Assembly (NCBI GenBank): GCA_016213775.1
Contig: JACQZR010000259.1
Location: 1-59,822 of the forward strand
Direction: 5' to 3'
DNA from: Acidobacteriota bacterium
GTDB taxonomy: Bacteria > Acidobacteriota > Terriglobia > Bryobacterales > Bryobacteraceae
Length of the DNA stretch: 59,822 nucleotides
Position 1 is the stretch's first letter, and each line of letters starts with the position of its first letter. The notes under the pieces are model-generated. The model was not told where the DNA came from and made no database searches. It worked only from the letters and a program-made list of their open reading frames with translations. This document shows, one piece after another, positions 23,089-30,113 of the stretch. The position numbers and the translations under genes are program-made.

Positions 23089-24024
23089 ATGATACGCTTT
23101 GCCGCAATCCTTCTTCTTGCACCTCCCACCCTCGCCCAAGTCAAGATAGCCCCCGGCTCGATCAACATCGATGTCGACGGGAAACCCTTCACCACGTTTC
23201 AGTACGGAGTCGATGCATGGAAGCCGTTCTTCGCCCCGCTGCGGAGCGCTTCCGGCAAGATCGTCACCCGACGGTTCCCGATGGAGATGATCCAGGGCGA
23301 AAGCCGCGACCACCTGCATCATCGCGGCCTCTGGTTCACCTACGACGATATCAACACGGTGAAGTATTGGGAGAACGATCCGTCGTATGCAAACAAGCCC
23401 AACAAAGGCCGCGTTGTGGTGAAGAAGGCGGATTGGAAGGAAGGGCCAAAATCGGGGACACTGGACGCGGTAATGGAATGGCAGGATGGCGCGGGGAAGG
23501 TGCAACTGGTTGAGAACCGCCGCACCGTGGTTTACTCCGACCCCAAGCTGCGCATCATGGATTTTCACATCACGCTCACGGCGGCCATCGACGTCACTAT
23601 CGGCGACACGAAGGAAGGAGCGTTCGCGATCCGGCTCGCCGAGGAGTTCACCGAGAGGCGCGGCGGCAAGATCACCAACGCCGATGGCCTGGAGACGATG
23701 AAGCAGATATGGGGCAAACGGTCGAATTGGGTGAACTACTCGGCCGAGTTGCAGGGGGAGAAACTAGGTGTGGCGATCTTCGATCACCCCTCCAATCCGG
23801 GGTATCCGACTCGCTGGCACGCGCGCGATTACGGCCTCTTCTCACTGAATCCTTTCGGGCAGCAGTCCTTCGATCCGGCGCAAACGGAGAATATCACTCG
23901 CCTCGCCGCTGGGCGCAAGTTGAACTTCGTATGGCGCGTGGTGATTCATCCGGACGAGATTCCAGCGGCCGATCTCTACAAGGCTTTCCTGGCATCACAC
24001 CATCAGCGGATTGACAACAGATAG
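23089..24024 (+). CDS. PmoA-like family protein (DUF6807), exported
   Basis: A 311-residue protein with signal peptide MIRFAAILLLAPPTLAQ. The mature part shows the family pattern: FTTFQYG, KPFFAPLRSASGKIVTRRFPM, and DHLHHRGLWFTYDDIN with its His-rich centre, then the C-terminal HARDYGLFSLNPFGQQ. The family name derives from a PmoA annotation but these proteins are not methane monooxygenase subunits; in acidobacteria and planctomycetes they sit among secreted carbohydrate-related genes. The catalytic role is unknown. Its 3' end overlaps the convergent OmpA-family gene by 22 bp. Confidence 0.82.
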   Translation: MIRFAAILLLAPPTLAQVKIAPGSINIDVDGKPFTTFQYGVDAWKPFFAPLRSASGKIVTRRFPMEMIQGESRDHLHHRGLWFTYDDINTVKYWENDPSYANKPNKGRVVVKKADWKEGPKSGTLDAVMEWQDGAGKVQLVENRRTVVYSDPKLRIMDFHITLTAAIDVTIGDTKEGAFAIRLAEEFTERRGGKITNADGLETMKQIWGKRSNWVNYSAELQGEKLGVAIFDHPSNPGYPTRWHARDYGLFSLNPFGQQSFDPAQTENITRLAAGRKLNFVWRVVIHPDEIPAADLYKAFLASHHQRIDNR

Positions 24025-25571
24025 GAGCGGTCCCACAAAGGCGACTGACCAATCGGATCACCAGTGATTACGATTTCCACTCTGCGGTTCTGCAGACGCC
24101 CGGCTGTGGAGGTGTTGGCGACCACGGGTGTGGAATCCCCGTAGCTCCGGGCGACTACCGCGTTCAGAGGGAAGTTCTCGCGAATGAGAATTCTGCGAAC
24201 CGACTCCGCCCGCTCACGCGACATACGTTCAAACTGAGCAGTATCGCTGTGCCCTTGCACCTCAATGCTCAGGCCAGTGTGCGCAGCCAACAGACGCGCT
24301 ATCCGGGACAATTCGGCATATGCGTTCCCGCGCGGAACGTTTCTCTGAAAGGCCACGTCCGGCAGAGTGACGACGAGACCGCGGGCCGTGTCGAGCACGG
24401 GCCATGCTCCCCCTAATTGGGCGAGCAGTGAGGCACGCAAAGCGGACCGCTGGGCGGCAATGCTCTCCCGTTCTTTCCGCTCCCGCATGGCCGCATTCGC
24501 CCGGCTCACCTCAGCTTCCATTTGCTGGCGAGCGATACGTTCGGACTCGGCGCGCGATTGCGCGGCCGCGGCCTCGGCGCGTGCCCGGTTGGCGTCATCC
24601 TGGGCACGGGCCGCAATCTGGCGCGCCGAATCGGCTTCGTTGCGGGCGTTCTGCATCTCGCGCTCGGCCTGCCGCTTCGATTGCGACACCGTCGTCTGCG
24701 CCTCCCGCCGTGTTTCGGCTAATAGCTCCGCTTGGGCCCGCTGCTCGGCAATGAGACGAGCATCCTCGGCCGTTTGAATGGCCTCGCGCGCAATCTGCAC
24801 GGAACGTTTTTCGCTGGCTTGCGATGCCGTCAATCGTTGCGCCTCATCCATCAACCGTTGCGCCTTGGCAAGTGTATCCGGGGCGTACCGTTGCGCGTCC
24901 GCCTGCTGCGCGATGCCAATGGCATTCTGGGCTTCGTACAGTTGCAGCATCGTTTCGTACCTTCCCATTGGCACCTTCTCGGTATAGGGGGTAGCAGGCC
25001 CCCTGCGGTCGGGAGCGTCCCACACATACTGGCCACGGGGAAGCAGCTCGTACTTCGCTTGGATCGGCTTCACGATACCCACGGTCCCCGGCCGCACCTT
25101 ATTTTCCAGGACCACTACGTCGCTCGGCTTGCGGACCGCGGAATAGGGCTCCGCGGTAACAATCATTCCGAACGCCTGTAAGTCTGTAGTTACGCGAACG
25201 TGGGCCTTGTCTGAAGCGCCCGCGACAAGTTCTCCTAAGTTATGCGGACGGCCTTCCGGCGTAACGGCCCAGAGCACATAAGTAAGATATTCCCGCCCGA
25301 AACGCTGAGCTGCCGGGAGTTTCTCGAACCTCACATCGATCTCGGTTCCTCCGCGTCTGGACTTCACAATTGCCTCGCCCTTCGAAGCGGGAAGCAGCAC
25401 TGTGCCAATGAAACCAATACTGGTTGGTTCCGCGCGATAGGAATAATTTACCGCCTCGATGCTGCGCTCGATGACCGTTACATGATAGATGGGCGCCCCG
25501 TTGCCTTGCGCCAGCGCACCAACTACCATCACCAACGCTATCATCAATAGCATGAAGGTTGACTTGGTCAT
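24003..25571 (-). CDS. OmpA-family outer-membrane/periplasmic protein with coiled coil
   Basis: 522 residues from the ATG at 25571 (signal peptide MTKSTFMLLMIALVMVVGALA). The N-terminal 180 residues are beta-rich (FIGTVLLPASKGEAIVKSRRG, LTYVLWAVTPEGRPHNLGEL). Residues about 200-380 form a long Ala/Gln/Arg/Glu-rich coiled coil. The C-terminal OmpA domain contains the peptidoglycan-binding pattern LSIEVQGHSDTAQF, RERAESVRRILI and NRRVEIVITG. It likely bridges the outer membrane and the cell wall. It precedes the sortase region on the opposite strand. Confidence 0.82.
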   Translation of the reverse strand: MTKSTFMLLMIALVMVVGALAQGNGAPIYHVTVIERSIEAVNYSYRAEPTSIGFIGTVLLPASKGEAIVKSRRGGTEIDVRFEKLPAAQRFGREYLTYVLWAVTPEGRPHNLGELVAGASDKAHVRVTTDLQAFGMIVTAEPYSAVRKPSDVVVLENKVRPGTVGIVKPIQAKYELLPRGQYVWDAPDRRGPATPYTEKVPMGRYETMLQLYEAQNAIGIAQQADAQRYAPDTLAKAQRLMDEAQRLTASQASEKRSVQIAREAIQTAEDARLIAEQRAQAELLAETRREAQTTVSQSKRQAEREMQNARNEADSARQIAARAQDDANRARAEAAAAQSRAESERIARQQMEAEVSRANAAMRERKERESIAAQRSALRASLLAQLGGAWPVLDTARGLVVTLPDVAFQRNVPRGNAYAELSRIARLLAAHTGLSIEVQGHSDTAQFERMSRERAESVRRILIRENFPLNAVVARSYGDSTPVVANTSTAGRLQNRRVEIVITGDPIGQSPLWDRSYLLSIR

Positions 25572-25783
25572 ATGTAAGAAACTCCTTCCTGGCTGATTCA
25601 GTCGCAATTTCCTTGCCATCCGAGCGGCGCCGTGAGCAAAGTGATGCTGCAATTTTTACAGTATGCGCGCGTTATCAAGACTTCGCCTCTGCCAAGTGAT
25701 TGGTGTTGTAAGAGTGGTGATAGGGTTGCTTCCAGGTGGATGCACGAGTGAATGCATTATTGCCCGATTGCAAGGAGATTCCA

Positions 25784-26484: not shown

Positions 26485-27225
26485 ATGATTTCGCAGTCAC
26501 GTGCACGACTATTCACACTACCCGCCCTGGCTTTGGCCGGCGTTGTTTGCCTTTGTTTGACTGGAACGCGCGCCAGAGCAGATGCGTGGGATAAAAAGAC
26601 AATCCTGACTGTCGATCAACCAATACAGGTAAGAAACACTTATCTGGAACCGGGCACTTACGTGTTCCGGCTTCTCGATTCCCCCTCAAACCGGCACGTC
26701 GTTCAGATCTTCAACAGCGACCAGAGCCGGATTATCGACACGGTGTTGGCTATTCCCAATTATAGGTTGCAGCCGACGGGCGACTCGCGCTTTGCCTTCT
26801 GGGAAACGCCGCCGGGAACAGCCAAGGCTCTGCGCGCCTGGTTCTATCCGGGAGACAACTTCGGGCAGGAATTCCCCTACCCGAAGCAACTGAGGCAACT
26901 CGAAGTGGCGGCTTTGATAACAAGGACTGAACCCGCACCGGCAGAAGTGAATATGGAAGAACCAACGCCAGCGCCTGAGCCGGCGCCAGCCCCGGTAGCA
27001 GTGGAGCCTTCCACTGAGGAGACGCCTGTGCCGGAACAGAAGTCTGAGCCCGTGGAGATAGCTCAGAACACGCCGGCGCCAAAACCGGCACAACAACCTG
27101 CCGAGCCAGAGCAACCGCAAGCGACCCCACAGCCAACTGAGCTGCCAAAGACAGCCAGTCCCTACCCAGCCTTGGCGCTGATTGGGCTGCTGTCGCTGGC
27201 GTCGTACGCCCGGCTCCGCAAGTAG
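26485..27225 (+). CDS. LPXTG-type surface protein, probable sortase substrate
   Basis: A 246-residue protein. A signal peptide (about residues 1-33, ending ARADA) is followed by a folded domain of about 105 residues (TVDQPIQVRNTYLEPGTYVF through FWETPPGTAKALRAWFYPG). Residues about 146-219 are a Pro/Glu/Ala-rich linker that could extend through the envelope. The C-terminus is a sorting signal: LPKTA from residue 220, a hydrophobic stretch, and the tail YARLRK. The sortase two genes downstream should cleave between Thr and Ala. AAAGGA precedes the ATG. Proteins of this type are known from acidobacteria, but the anchoring site in a diderm envelope is not established. Confidence 0.78.
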   Translation: MISQSRARLFTLPALALAGVVCLCLTGTRARADAWDKKTILTVDQPIQVRNTYLEPGTYVFRLLDSPSNRHVVQIFNSDQSRIIDTVLAIPNYRLQPTGDSRFAFWETPPGTAKALRAWFYPGDNFGQEFPYPKQLRQLEVAALITRTEPAPAEVNMEEPTPAPEPAPAPVAVEPSTEETPVPEQKSEPVEIAQNTPAPKPAQQPAEPEQPQATPQPTELPKTASPYPALALIGLLSLASYARLRK

Positions 27226-27267
27226 CTACGCAAGCTGTGGGTGTATACCAGGAGAGAGAGGGATTCT

Positions 27268-28224
27268 ATGACCAGGCGCCAACTCATCTACAAGCTCGGT
27301 ACCGCCGGGGCGTTGACCCTCTCTCGCCCCGGCTGGACCTACCTGCAAGACAATTCACGAGATCTCGTCCTCCGCAGTGAAACCCGGTTGGTGCTGCTCG
27401 ACGTGAGCGTCAAGGATCGCACCGGGGCACTCGTGTCAGGGCTGTCCAGGAGCAATTTTGAGGTGCGCGAAAACAACGTCCAGCAGCCGATCACCGTCTT
27501 CTCCAATGCGGATGTCCCGGTGACAGTGGGCATCCTCGTGGATGAAAGCCGCAGCATGACGCCCAAGCGCGCCGAAGTGCTGGCCGCTGCAGAGGAATTC
27601 ATCAAGGAGAGCAATCCGCAGGATCAGGTTTTTGTTTTAAGCTTCAGCGAGACAGTCAAGCGCGGGCTCCCGGACGATGTCTCATTTTCGAGCGATCTGG
27701 AACAGTTGCGCAGGGCGCTTCATCGTGCGGCTCCCGAGGGACGAACTGCCCTTTACGATGCCGTCGTCGAAGGGTTGAAGCACTTGCAGACGGGCCGCCG
27801 CGAGAAGAAGGCCCTGGTTGTGATTAGCGACGGTGGCGATACGGCAAGCACGCATACCCGCCGGGAGGCGATGCATGCTGTGGAGAGCACCAGCGCGACG
27901 GTGTATTCCGTCGGCCTGTTCACTCCACAGGATCCTGACCGGGATCCGGGGACCCTCAAACAGATGTCCAGGATCAGCGGTGGGGAAGCGTATTTTCCAG
28001 AGAGTCCTTCGGGAATGACTGCCGCCTGCCGTGCGATCGCCACTGATATCCGCACGCGCTACACGGTCGGCTACATTCCCAAGGCCGATGACGGCAAGGG
28101 AGCCTGGAGGCGTATCCATGTCGAGGTGAAGGTCGCCGGACGACCGCACCTCAGCGCGCGCACTCGCCTCGGCTATCGTTATGAGCCAGAGCCAACCGGC
28201 GCGGCGACCGCGGGGAGGGTGTAA
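27268..28224 (+). CDS. Acidobacterial VWFA-related domain protein, Tat-exported
   Basis: A 318-residue protein starting at 27268 behind an AGGAGAGAG Shine-Dalgarno. The N-terminus MTRRQLIYKLGTAGALTL is a twin-arginine signal. The domain matches the acidobacterial VWFA-related family: LVLLDVSVKDRTGALVSGL and NFEVRENNVQQPITVF lead into the A-domain with MIDAS motif DESRS (D92), ISDGGD and the closing YTVGYIP strand. It carries no sorting signal of its own. The stop is 1 bp before the sortase ATG, so the two are translationally linked. A role in adhesion or in presenting the LPKTA protein is inferred from context. Confidence 0.82.
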   Translation: MTRRQLIYKLGTAGALTLSRPGWTYLQDNSRDLVLRSETRLVLLDVSVKDRTGALVSGLSRSNFEVRENNVQQPITVFSNADVPVTVGILVDESRSMTPKRAEVLAAAEEFIKESNPQDQVFVLSFSETVKRGLPDDVSFSSDLEQLRRALHRAAPEGRTALYDAVVEGLKHLQTGRREKKALVVISDGGDTASTHTRREAMHAVESTSATVYSVGLFTPQDPDRDPGTLKQMSRISGGEAYFPESPSGMTAACRAIATDIRTRYTVGYIPKADDGKGAWRRIHVEVKVAGRPHLSARTRLGYRYEPEPTGAATAGRV

Positions 28225-28225
28225 G

Positions 28226-29008
28226 ATGCGGCGTTGGCTGGAACGGCTTCTCCTGGTTACCGCCATCGTCTGCCTCGGCCTATGGGGCTGGTCGACGATT
28301 GGCGGCGCGCTATATCAGCACTATCAAAACTACGCATTTGAGCAATCGTTGCGAGGCGCCGCTGCAACTCCTACCAGTTACCTTGGCGAACGATGGAGCG
28401 GTCTGGTGGATACCGCGCGGGATTGGGTGGGGCTGAGACAATCGCCTCGACGCGCAACGGCGCGGCGCGGCACCGCACTAGTTCCCCACGACGGACTCGT
28501 GGGCCGCCTGGAGATACCGCGTCTGCGGCTACGTGCCATGGTGAGGGAAGGCCTCGGCGAGACCACCCTCGGCGTGGCGCTGGGCCACATTCCCGGCACG
28601 GCATTTCCCGGCGAACCGGGGAATGTAGGCGTTGCCGGACATCGCGACACACTCTTCCGCTCGCTTCAGGACATCGATCGCGAGGACCTGATTGTTTTCC
28701 ATACTCTCACGGGCCGCTATCACTATCGCGTGGTGTCCACCGCCGTGGTCCCTCCTTCGACGGTGAGCGTGCTGAGGAACGGCGCCGGCGCGGACCTGAC
28801 CCTGGTTACCTGCTTCCCGTTTGGCTACGTCGGCTCAGCCCCCAAGCGATTCGTGGTGAAAGCCAAGCTCGTGGGAGGGCGTGACGTGGCCACTAATGCG
28901 TCGGCTTTGACTGCGGGGGCAGCACGGCCCAGAAGTCCTGCCGGAAGCGATCCTTATACCGCTGCATCAACTCGACAACCCGCGCATGCACGGGCGACCT
29001 CACGATGA
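28226..29008 (+). CDS. Class D-like sortase
   Basis: A 260-residue membrane-anchored cysteine transpeptidase. One N-terminal transmembrane segment (LLLVTAIVCLGLWGWSTIGG) precedes the sortase domain, which starts at GLVGRLEIPRLRL. The catalytic residues are visible as His139 in AGHRDT, Cys196 in LVTCFPF and Arg208 in PKRFVV. The order and the TCFPF context resemble class D sortases and the marine proteobacterial type. About 45 Ser/Ala/Arg-rich residues follow the catalytic core; this tail is encoded in the 116 bp that overlap the convergent ATP-grasp gene. It should cleave the LPKTA protein encoded at 26485. The acceptor is unknown. Confidence 0.85.
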   Translation: MRRWLERLLLVTAIVCLGLWGWSTIGGALYQHYQNYAFEQSLRGAAATPTSYLGERWSGLVDTARDWVGLRQSPRRATARRGTALVPHDGLVGRLEIPRLRLRAMVREGLGETTLGVALGHIPGTAFPGEPGNVGVAGHRDTLFRSLQDIDREDLIVFHTLTGRYHYRVVSTAVVPPSTVSVLRNGAGADLTLVTCFPFGYVGSAPKRFVVKAKLVGGRDVATNASALTAGAARPRSPAGSDPYTAASTRQPAHARATSR

Positions 29009-30113
29009 GACCGGCATGATGCTCCCGCTGCATGCGCCAGACAATCTCCGGATCGTCGTAAGCGGAAAGGTCCGGCCATTGCTGTTTCGCCAACGATACC
29101 AGCAGCCCGGCGTAATCGTTGCGTGCCGGCGGAGCCTGATACGCCGTTTTGCCGCCGGCGAGTTCCACCTTCGCCCATTCGCGCCACATGTTGACGCCCG
29201 TGGCAGCTTCGATCAGATCCGCGATATGCGCTCCACCGACGCGTGCGGAAGTCTCCAGAAAGTACACCTTACCGTCCTCGTGGGCGATGATGAACTCCGT
29301 ATGCGAAACGCCGCGCAGCAATCCGAGCCCGGCGAGAACACGGGAGTTCTTGGCCAGCAACAGCTTCTCCCGCTCTGAACCGCGCAGGCAAAGGCTCGCC
29401 GTGAAGATGTCGCCGCTATGGGAGACGTCCAACGGCGGCCGCCCGTACTCCGATGCCACGGCGAACATCAACTCGTTCTCGTACACGATAGAGTCCACGT
29501 GGCAGATGTCGCCGGCGACAAAGCGCTCCAGCAGGTGGAAGGACTGTTGATCGCCAAGGGCGTGGATCAGTTCCCAGGCGCGCTCTCGCGTATGGACTTT
29601 TTGGATCCCGATAGCCCCGGCCAGCAGCCGCGGCTTCAGCACCCAGGGTGGAGGCACGCGGTGGAGGAATTCATTCACGCGCTGATGGTTGAGGATGGGG
29701 ACGAAATCGGGGATACTGAGCCCCACTTCTTCGGCCTGGATGCGCATTGCGAGTTTGTCTCGAAAGTGGCGCGTGGTGGACTCGCCCATGCCGCCGATAC
29801 GCAGATGCGCGCGCAGAAACGCGGCCATTTCCAGATCAAAATCATCCAACGGCACGATCAGGTCGATCACGTTGTCGCGGCAGAGATGCGCCACGGCGTA
29901 GAGCGTGTGGTCGCGGTTCCACACGTGATTGTCGTCGGGCATGTAGAAGATGTTGTCGATGGCCTCAACGGGCCATGCCGCTTTGTGCTGCAGTGAGAGC
30001 GAGGTGAGCAGAAAGACGCGGGCGCCGGACTCCTTGCACTGGCGCAGGAAATCGTGCCCTTTCTCGTAGCTGGCGATGCAGAGTATAGCCGGCGGTGTAG
30101 CCATATGCGCCAA
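28893..30113 (-). CDS. ATP-grasp domain protein
   Basis: A 406-residue ATP-grasp enzyme of the carboxylate-amine ligase type, cytosolic. The N-terminal Rossmann-like part (AILCIASYEKGHDFLRQC) is followed by the ATP-grasp fold: FRDKLAMRIQAEEVGLSIPDF, PWVLKPRLLAGAIGI with the nucleotide-binding Lys, LLERFVAGDICHVD, and HTEFIIAHEDGKVYFLETSARVGG with the Mg-binding Glu and Asn-equivalent. The substrate is unknown; relatives form amide bonds in cofactor or natural-product pathways. The 3' end overlaps the sortase gene on the other strand by 116 bp. Confidence 0.82.
   Translation of the reverse strand: MAHMATPPAILCIASYEKGHDFLRQCKESGARVFLLTSLSLQHKAAWPVEAIDNIFYMPDDNHVWNRDHTLYAVAHLCRDNVIDLIVPLDDFDLEMAAFLRAHLRIGGMGESTTRHFRDKLAMRIQAEEVGLSIPDFVPILNHQRVNEFLHRVPPPWVLKPRLLAGAIGIQKVHTRERAWELIHALGDQQSFHLLERFVAGDICHVDSIVYENELMFAVASEYGRPPLDVSHSGDIFTASLCLRGSEREKLLLAKNSRVLAGLGLLRGVSHTEFIIAHEDGKVYFLETSARVGGAHIADLIEAATGVNMWREWAKVELAGGKTAYQAPPARNDYAGLLVSLAKQQWPDLSAYDDPEIVWRMQREHHAGLIVRSPVHARVVELMQRYKDRFRQDFWAVLPPQSKPTH

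Follow-up and report, generated by a model that had tools for sequence, protein, structure and literature searches.

The window analysed here is a stretch of 59,822 nucleotides of an Acidobacteriota bacterium of the family Bryobacteraceae (assembly GCA_016213775.1, contig JACQZR010000259.1, positions 1 to 59,822). Between positions 26485 and 29008 it carries a compact block of three genes, which encode a protein with a C-terminal sorting tail (hereafter P1), a von Willebrand factor type A (VWA) protein that has no such tail, and a sortase. From features of the sequences and from analogy with characterised enzymes, I propose that the block is probably an operon that pairs a sortase with a single dedicated substrate: the sortase would cut P1 at LPKT/A and anchor it, most likely to peptidoglycan, and the VWA protein is best read as a partner often present but dispensable. 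What the genomes themselves show is the block of genes and how it is conserved, the sorting tail, the catalytic triad and the co-occurrence of substrate and enzyme; the features of the block are the following.

26485..27225, plus strand: gene of P1, the substrate (246 aa), with signal, beta domain, linker and sorting tail
26587..26886, plus strand: P1 domain, residues 35-134, mostly strands, ending in YPK (132-134)
26887..27141, plus strand: P1 linker rich in Pro, Glu and Ala, residues 135-219 (85 aa)
27142..27156, plus strand: LPKTA sorting motif of P1, residues 220-224, with the predicted cut between T223 and A224
27157..27222, plus strand: hydrophobic stretch and basic RLRK end of P1
27268..28224, plus strand: VWA protein P0002 (318 aa), TIGR03436 family, without sorting tail; metal ion-dependent adhesion site (MIDAS) residues D92, S94, S96, T160 and D188
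28226..29008, plus strand: sortase P0003 (260 aa), with a long N-terminal helix (2-42) and a sortase domain at about 90-216
28640..28642, plus strand: codon of the sortase catalytic His139
28811..28813, plus strand: codon of the sortase catalytic Cys196
28847..28849, plus strand: codon of the sortase catalytic Arg208

The sorting tail and the sortase

The first-pass annotation of the window had described a three-gene sortase locus at 26485-29008, and both its limits and its intergenic gaps of 42 and 1 bp are borne out, the three same-strand open reading frames (ORFs) at 26485-27225, 27268-28224 and 28226-29008 each having a purine-rich run ahead of the ATG. It was equally right in reporting a complete LPKTA-hydrophobic-RLRK tail (motif at residues 220-224) behind a long Pro/Glu/Ala linker (85 residues), a split between a tailed substrate and a tail-less VWA protein, and a sortase with His139, Cys196 and Arg208. 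P1 runs from a signal-like N-terminus through its domain and linker to the tail LPKTASPYPALALIGLLSLASYARLRK, where motif, hydrophobic stretch and basic end stand at the C-terminus in the layout of an LPXTG-type signal; no other strict LPxTA/G/S tail is found among the 515 open frames of at least 60 codons in the window. In a tail profile built from 54 tails, P and T are invariant. The Pfam scan returned no PF00746 match for P1 itself, and 9 of 70 relatives match that family at E<=0.01.

The window sortase matches PF04203 (E 2.9e-26; 92.1 bits, cut-off 26.6) and passes TIGR01076 (67.4 vs 39.35 bits). The columns of His139, Cys196 and Arg208 hold H, C and R in all 181 aligned acidobacterial sortases, and in the window protein these residues align with those of 2ln7, which I take to be a B. 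anthracis sortase. The AlphaFold2 model has a pLDDT of 85.1, and Foldseek matches it to 4d70 at E 3.4e-13, with 136 matches at E<=0.001. Profile, triad and predicted fold together place the window protein in the sortase superfamily. Triad and fold also bear on whether the enzyme might act as a releasing protease, by which P1 would be cut from the membrane, water would take the acyl group and P1 would be left free in the periplasm. The locus shows no gene for an acceptor, which favours such a release, yet the full H/C/R triad and the fold are those of transpeptidases, and the long linker would suit a tethered protein better; release therefore seems decidedly unlikely.

As to its class, the label "class D-like" given at first pass stands insofar as class D is the nearest class, even though neither class D cut-off is reached (NF033746, 112.1 of 165 bits; NF058671, 116.6 of 140 bits); one relative, L034, attains 148.5 bits against the 140 of NF058671 only. 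Membership of class GN, the marine type, was rejected, for the window sortase scores 82.9 bits where TIGR03784 requires 158.25, and the tail is on P1, with none on the VWA protein.

Co-occurrence of substrate and sortase

Across the phylum, 81 of 396 genomes contain a PF04203 sortase; within the window's family, 69 of 101 have a relative of P0003. Loci of up to 15 kb were retrieved around 100 of the 106 phylum matches outside the window and around 80 of the 92 family rows (of the 12 family rows outside the sample, one is the window, two belong to the phylum set and one falls within a sampled locus); two phylum loci retrieved later, L371 and L372, are excluded from the counts. As classified by crude ORF calling with fixed distance limits, the 80 family loci comprise 51 with P1, VWA and sortase, 23 with P1 and sortase, three with a VWA gene and no P1 seen, two with another tailed neighbour and one with nothing. 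In the same order, the 100 phylum loci number 14, 22, 3, 31 and 11, to which 19 loci with a long VWA protein (type C) are added. The three-gene order seen in the window thus often recurs in its relatives.

In 142 of 180 loci (70/100 phylum, 72/80 family) a strict tail is encoded no more than 3.6 kb from the sortase and on the same strand; the opposite strand has one in a single locus (1/100 and 0/80), and so do 2 of 1250 background genes, both of them P1 proteins. A looser pattern gives 82/100 phylum and 72/80 family loci on the same strand vs 7 and 7 on the opposite one. Likewise, P1 is present in 68 of the 69 family genomes with a sortase and in none of the 32 without (Fisher p 1.6e-25), the tail in 58 of 69 vs 0 of 32 (p 2.7e-17); these p values overstate independence, since the genomes are related and the trained profiles A1 and A2 both contain family members. 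Eleven sortase-positive genomes have no tail match: in eight the sampled locus has an end resembling a tail, frequently MPxTS or a related form, one has none, and two are outside the sampled loci. Conversely, a genome of the window's own genus (G436) is without sortase, tail and P1 all together. On account of the opposite-strand and background controls and of the co-occurrence test, a chance neighbourhood of substrate and sortase was rejected.

A P1 profile search of genome contigs leads to the same picture from the substrate's side. Among the best 80 of 146 P1 relatives, 79 have acidobacterial source titles and 78 carry a strict tail, the exceptions being one cut by a contig end and one VPNTA form; 53 lie in three-gene and 13 in two-gene loci, in six the sortase is encoded on the opposite strand, and eight show no sortase. 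In six of these eight the contig ends within 1.2 kb; in the remaining two it continues downstream for 4.2 kb (L303) and 9.7 kb (L322). One three-gene locus (L283) stands in a record titled as a betaproteobacterial metagenome-assembled genome (MAG), which is probably a mislabelled acidobacterium.

The window genome (10,956,185 bases in 314 contigs, 98.5% complete, 4.6% contaminated) encodes LptD, hence the organism is a diderm. It holds one PF04203 sortase, one tail by the tail profile (E 7e-13, runner-up E 0.42, with 150 of 263 first-look candidates scored) and one clear P1 (E 1e-89), followed by a tail-less pair at E 0.0036. Across the family, one sortase row and one tail are counted in 36 of the 58 genomes having a tail, tails being fewer than sortases in ten (one sortase of genome G443 is split across two rows in this count). 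The dedicated one-substrate system inferred in the first-pass annotation accordingly fits the window genome, and dedicated pairing is frequent, not universal, in its family.

Other sortase systems exist in the phylum. In 33 loci (L048, L111 and 31 others) an acidobacterial sortase adjoins a tailed protein other than P1; a hidden P1 identity of these neighbours was rejected, as hhalign aligns just 14 columns around the start. The long VWA proteins of type C loci, for their part, often end in an LPQTA- or LPQGGT-like tail of their own, and the three type C sortases scanned (L074, L079, L123) all pass TIGR03784. The contrast with marine-type sortases noticed at first pass is real, and that type is also present in this very phylum. 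At least two kinds of sortase system are thus encoded by acidobacteria, namely class GN with a tailed VWA protein, and the P1 kind.

Proposed fate of P1

The cleavage of P1, its acceptor, its final location and the part played by the VWA protein may be pictured as follows. Once exported, P1 would be retained in the inner membrane through its C-terminal helix, and the membrane-bound sortase, with its active site facing the periplasm, would cut LPKTA between T223 and A224; an acyl-enzyme would form on Cys196, and P1 would then be handed to an amine, the likeliest acceptor being in peptidoglycan or lipid II. The P1 domain would thereby stand off the cell wall on a flexible linker of roughly 85 residues, reaching through the periplasm, a length of Pro-rich chain that could span it. 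The exported co-operonic VWA protein may bind P1 or aid its assembly via an intact metal-binding site. The cut after Thr, the acyl-enzyme and the transfer to an amine are the chemistry described for sortases (PMC1569441, PMC3208642; these and all papers below are cited from excerpts of their text), and sorted proteins of B. anthracis are attached to the meso-diaminopimelic acid of the wall (PMC3208642). By analogy with the latter, peptidoglycan would be the acceptor of P1 as well, and thin but real support comes from within the phylum, where 2 of 10 scanned tailed non-P1 substrates contain PG_binding_1.

These same two substrates count against a different destination, by which the acceptor would be an envelope lipid, a sugar or an outer-membrane component, P1 ending on the outer membrane or the cell surface. 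The organism being a diderm, as LptD indicates, and PEP-CTERM proteins having been proposed to reach or cross the outer membrane (excerpts of PMC1569441), such a fate is conceivable; it is nonetheless unlikely, given also that no glycosylation or outer-membrane gene is kept beside the block (the five flanking window genes recur in 0, 7, 0, 1 and 0 of 180 loci).

Several observations weigh against the proposal of an operon with one dedicated substrate anchored to peptidoglycan. Besides the overstated independence of the p values, P1 and the sortase occur without a VWA gene in 45 of 181 loci, and in 12 of 181 the patterns used reveal no neighbour that is tailed, P1 or VWA. L322 encodes P1 and a VWA protein with no sortase in its 9.7 kb downstream. 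The pairing is not one-to-one in 22 of the 58 tail-bearing family genomes, four of which have more tails than sortases; a case in point is F-183, with one sortase match, an adjoining P1 with an MPATA tail and a further tailed P1 elsewhere. In the sortase tree, made of 181 short domains and 133 columns only, the three-gene sortases are not one clade. Finally, the acceptor is reached by analogy only.

The same tree is instructive about the VWA protein. It shows 19 changes of the three-gene label, of which at least 6 are forced, and two of the long-VWA label, and the nearest starred set of five rows around the window sortase includes one locus without a VWA gene. The scatter of the three-gene label implies repeated loss or gain of VWA, and this argues against a machine that needs all three parts; what the first-pass annotation presented as a three-gene system is right as regards a frequent neighbour, and has to be amended as regards its indispensability.

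The P1 domain

The window P1 matches no Pfam or NCBIfam family; a weak similarity to DUF2911 appears in 12 of 70 relatives (best E 2.7e-4), P1 of the window itself being without a Pfam match. Over about residues 40-130 the domain is predicted with a pLDDT of mostly 85-96, and the fold found nothing in the PDB at E 0.001 (best 0.11), nor did the sequence at E 1.

Two residues near the end of the domain follow the tail. K134 is found in 83 of 106 tailed vs 4 of 21 tail-less P1 domains (p 4e-7) and Y132 in 94 of 106 vs 7 of 21, while G57, G127 and F130 are equally conserved in both; the tail-less set contains one row cut by a contig end and five rows that adjoin a sortase and whose tail is unseen or unusual. 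On the strength of this link with the tail, the sortase might be thought to polymerise P1, the Thr carboxyl of one copy being joined to Lys134 of the next in a thin fibre. I regard this as rather improbable: the tail-less set is flawed as just described, P1 relatives lack independence, Y121 and E129 drop as well, and some tailed P1 proteins have no Lys at that position (LPP, LPD, LPN and others). Moreover, the window sortase misses the model of the pilin-polymerising class C (NF033745, 62.7 of 160 bits) and has no DPF/DPW lid before its domain, such a lid being a class C feature. A more elaborate version, in which P1 joined head to tail via K134 would make up a sortase-built filament spanning or leaving the two-membrane envelope of a diderm, with the VWA protein as adhesive or organising subunit, is quite improbable.

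Secreted tail-less P1 paralogues (L354-L367), mostly without YPK, occur in genomes that also hold a tailed P1.

The VWA protein

The VWA protein matches PF13519 and PF00092 and passes the cut-off of TIGR03436 (187.1 vs 81.25 bits), a family of which the window genome has 22 genes above cut-off, the operon gene counted. Its metal-site columns D92, S94, S96, T160 and D188 are kept at 100, 100, 89, 100 and 100% in 70 operon VWA proteins. In a tree of 90 rows (71 operon VWA proteins and 19 window-genome paralogues, some duplicated and the paralogues of other genomes left out), one group (98/95) holds 70 of the 71 operon proteins together with two identical paralogue rows, L076 standing outside, and the operon label changes twice vs a mean of 17.4 when shuffled, none of 500 shuffles being as low. 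Operon VWA proteins are orthologous across loci and apart from most window-genome paralogues.

This clustering, together with the same position of the gene in 51 of 80 family loci, makes it most improbable that the VWA gene is a chance neighbour without a role, as the 22 TIGR03436 genes of the genome and the many loci without VWA could otherwise suggest. Adjacency to the sortase and orthology across loci might also be taken as signs that the sortase links P1 covalently to the VWA protein, the more so as two Lys columns are commoner in operon proteins than in paralogues (K100, 77% vs 20%; K180, 81% vs 13%). These columns, however, are not invariant, and a conjugate would be hard to reconcile with the P1 and sortase loci devoid of VWA counted above; I hold it to be hardly likely.

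Export via twin-arginine translocation (Tat), also claimed at first pass, has to be amended. The N-terminus MTRRQLI is Tat-like by eye, but the Pfam Tat-signal model has no match in the window protein at E 0.1, and a crude twin-Arg pattern is found in 15 of 71 operon VWA proteins and a lipobox-like one in 5 of 71, which implies that most use other signals. Tat export was rejected as a system-wide feature, the crude pattern not being conserved.

Gene neighbourhood

A larger operon was rejected on the same recurrence of the five flanking genes as given above. Downstream, a convergent ORF on the minus strand (28893-30113), with weak ATP-grasp similarity, overlaps the 3' end of the sortase gene (28893-29008); upstream, the minus strand encodes at 24003-25652 an OmpA-family protein with a long region that is likely coiled coil, relatives of which are found in 7 of 180 loci.

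Within three-gene loci, the VWA and sortase ORFs share a 4-bp overlap in 41 of 66. An insert of at least 1.5 kb is present in 15 of 66; in at least 12 of the 66, P1 and VWA are separated by a gene for malic enzyme (12 full-length ORFs, e.g. L208:9145-10953 and L180:9051-10799), two such inserts being confirmed by Pfam; I read this gene as a passenger. At L261 the arrangement differs again: one tailed P1 has two VWA genes and a divergent sortase around it.

Comparison with known systems

Sortases are best known from Gram-positive bacteria. Their occurrence in 81 of 396 genomes of a large soil phylum, tied in one family to P1, would mean, if the anchoring is true, that this phylum fixes proteins covalently in a diderm envelope by enzymes other than L,D-transpeptidases; the block is carried by two non-MAG genomes, KBS 96, in which one sortase match and one tail are counted, and F-183, and the acceptor question is thus open to experiment. 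Six sortases have been counted in Ca. Solibacter usitatus (excerpts of PMC3174227), and in the excerpts of PMC7203096 sortase is treated as unknown in strictly negibacterial phyla, though class GN had already been described (PMC3237569). Dedicated Gram-negative sortase cassettes are already known, then, as class GN; in the subset of open-access literature searched, nothing was found that describes P1, its pairing with a sortase or a three-gene form split in this way. The TIGR03436 acidobacterial VWFA family, of which the window VWA protein is a member in a subgroup tied to the sortase, has no published function in the same literature.

Class D (B. anthracis SrtC/SrtD, with LPNTA, and C. perfringens SrtD) is the best-scoring NCBIfam class for the window sortase and includes the nearest solved structures, 2ln7 and 4d70. 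The Ala after Thr in LPKTA resembles the LPNTA of class D (excerpts of PMC3208642 and PMC4498605), and C. perfringens SrtD likewise adjoins one tailed protein (PMC4498605). Unlike class D, the window system belongs to a diderm, scores below both cut-offs and is paired with P1 and often with a VWA protein.

Exosortase/PEP-CTERM and rhombosortase/GlyGly-CTERM systems share with P1 a C-terminal motif, a helix, a basic end and a paired processing enzyme, and one-target pairs of this type tend to be adjacent (excerpts of PMC3237569); the window enzyme differs from theirs in being a true PF04203 sortase, and the motif in being LPxTA. There is also a likeness with class GN, whose excerpted description (PMC3237569) is of a dedicated Gram-negative sortase (TIGR03784) with a single LPXTG target, a VWA protein, in the adjacent gene: the window system, too, has a dedicated sortase in a Gram-negative, an adjacent target and a VWA protein involved. 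In class GN, however, the VWA protein carries the tail, whereas in the window system a separate protein, P1, carries it.

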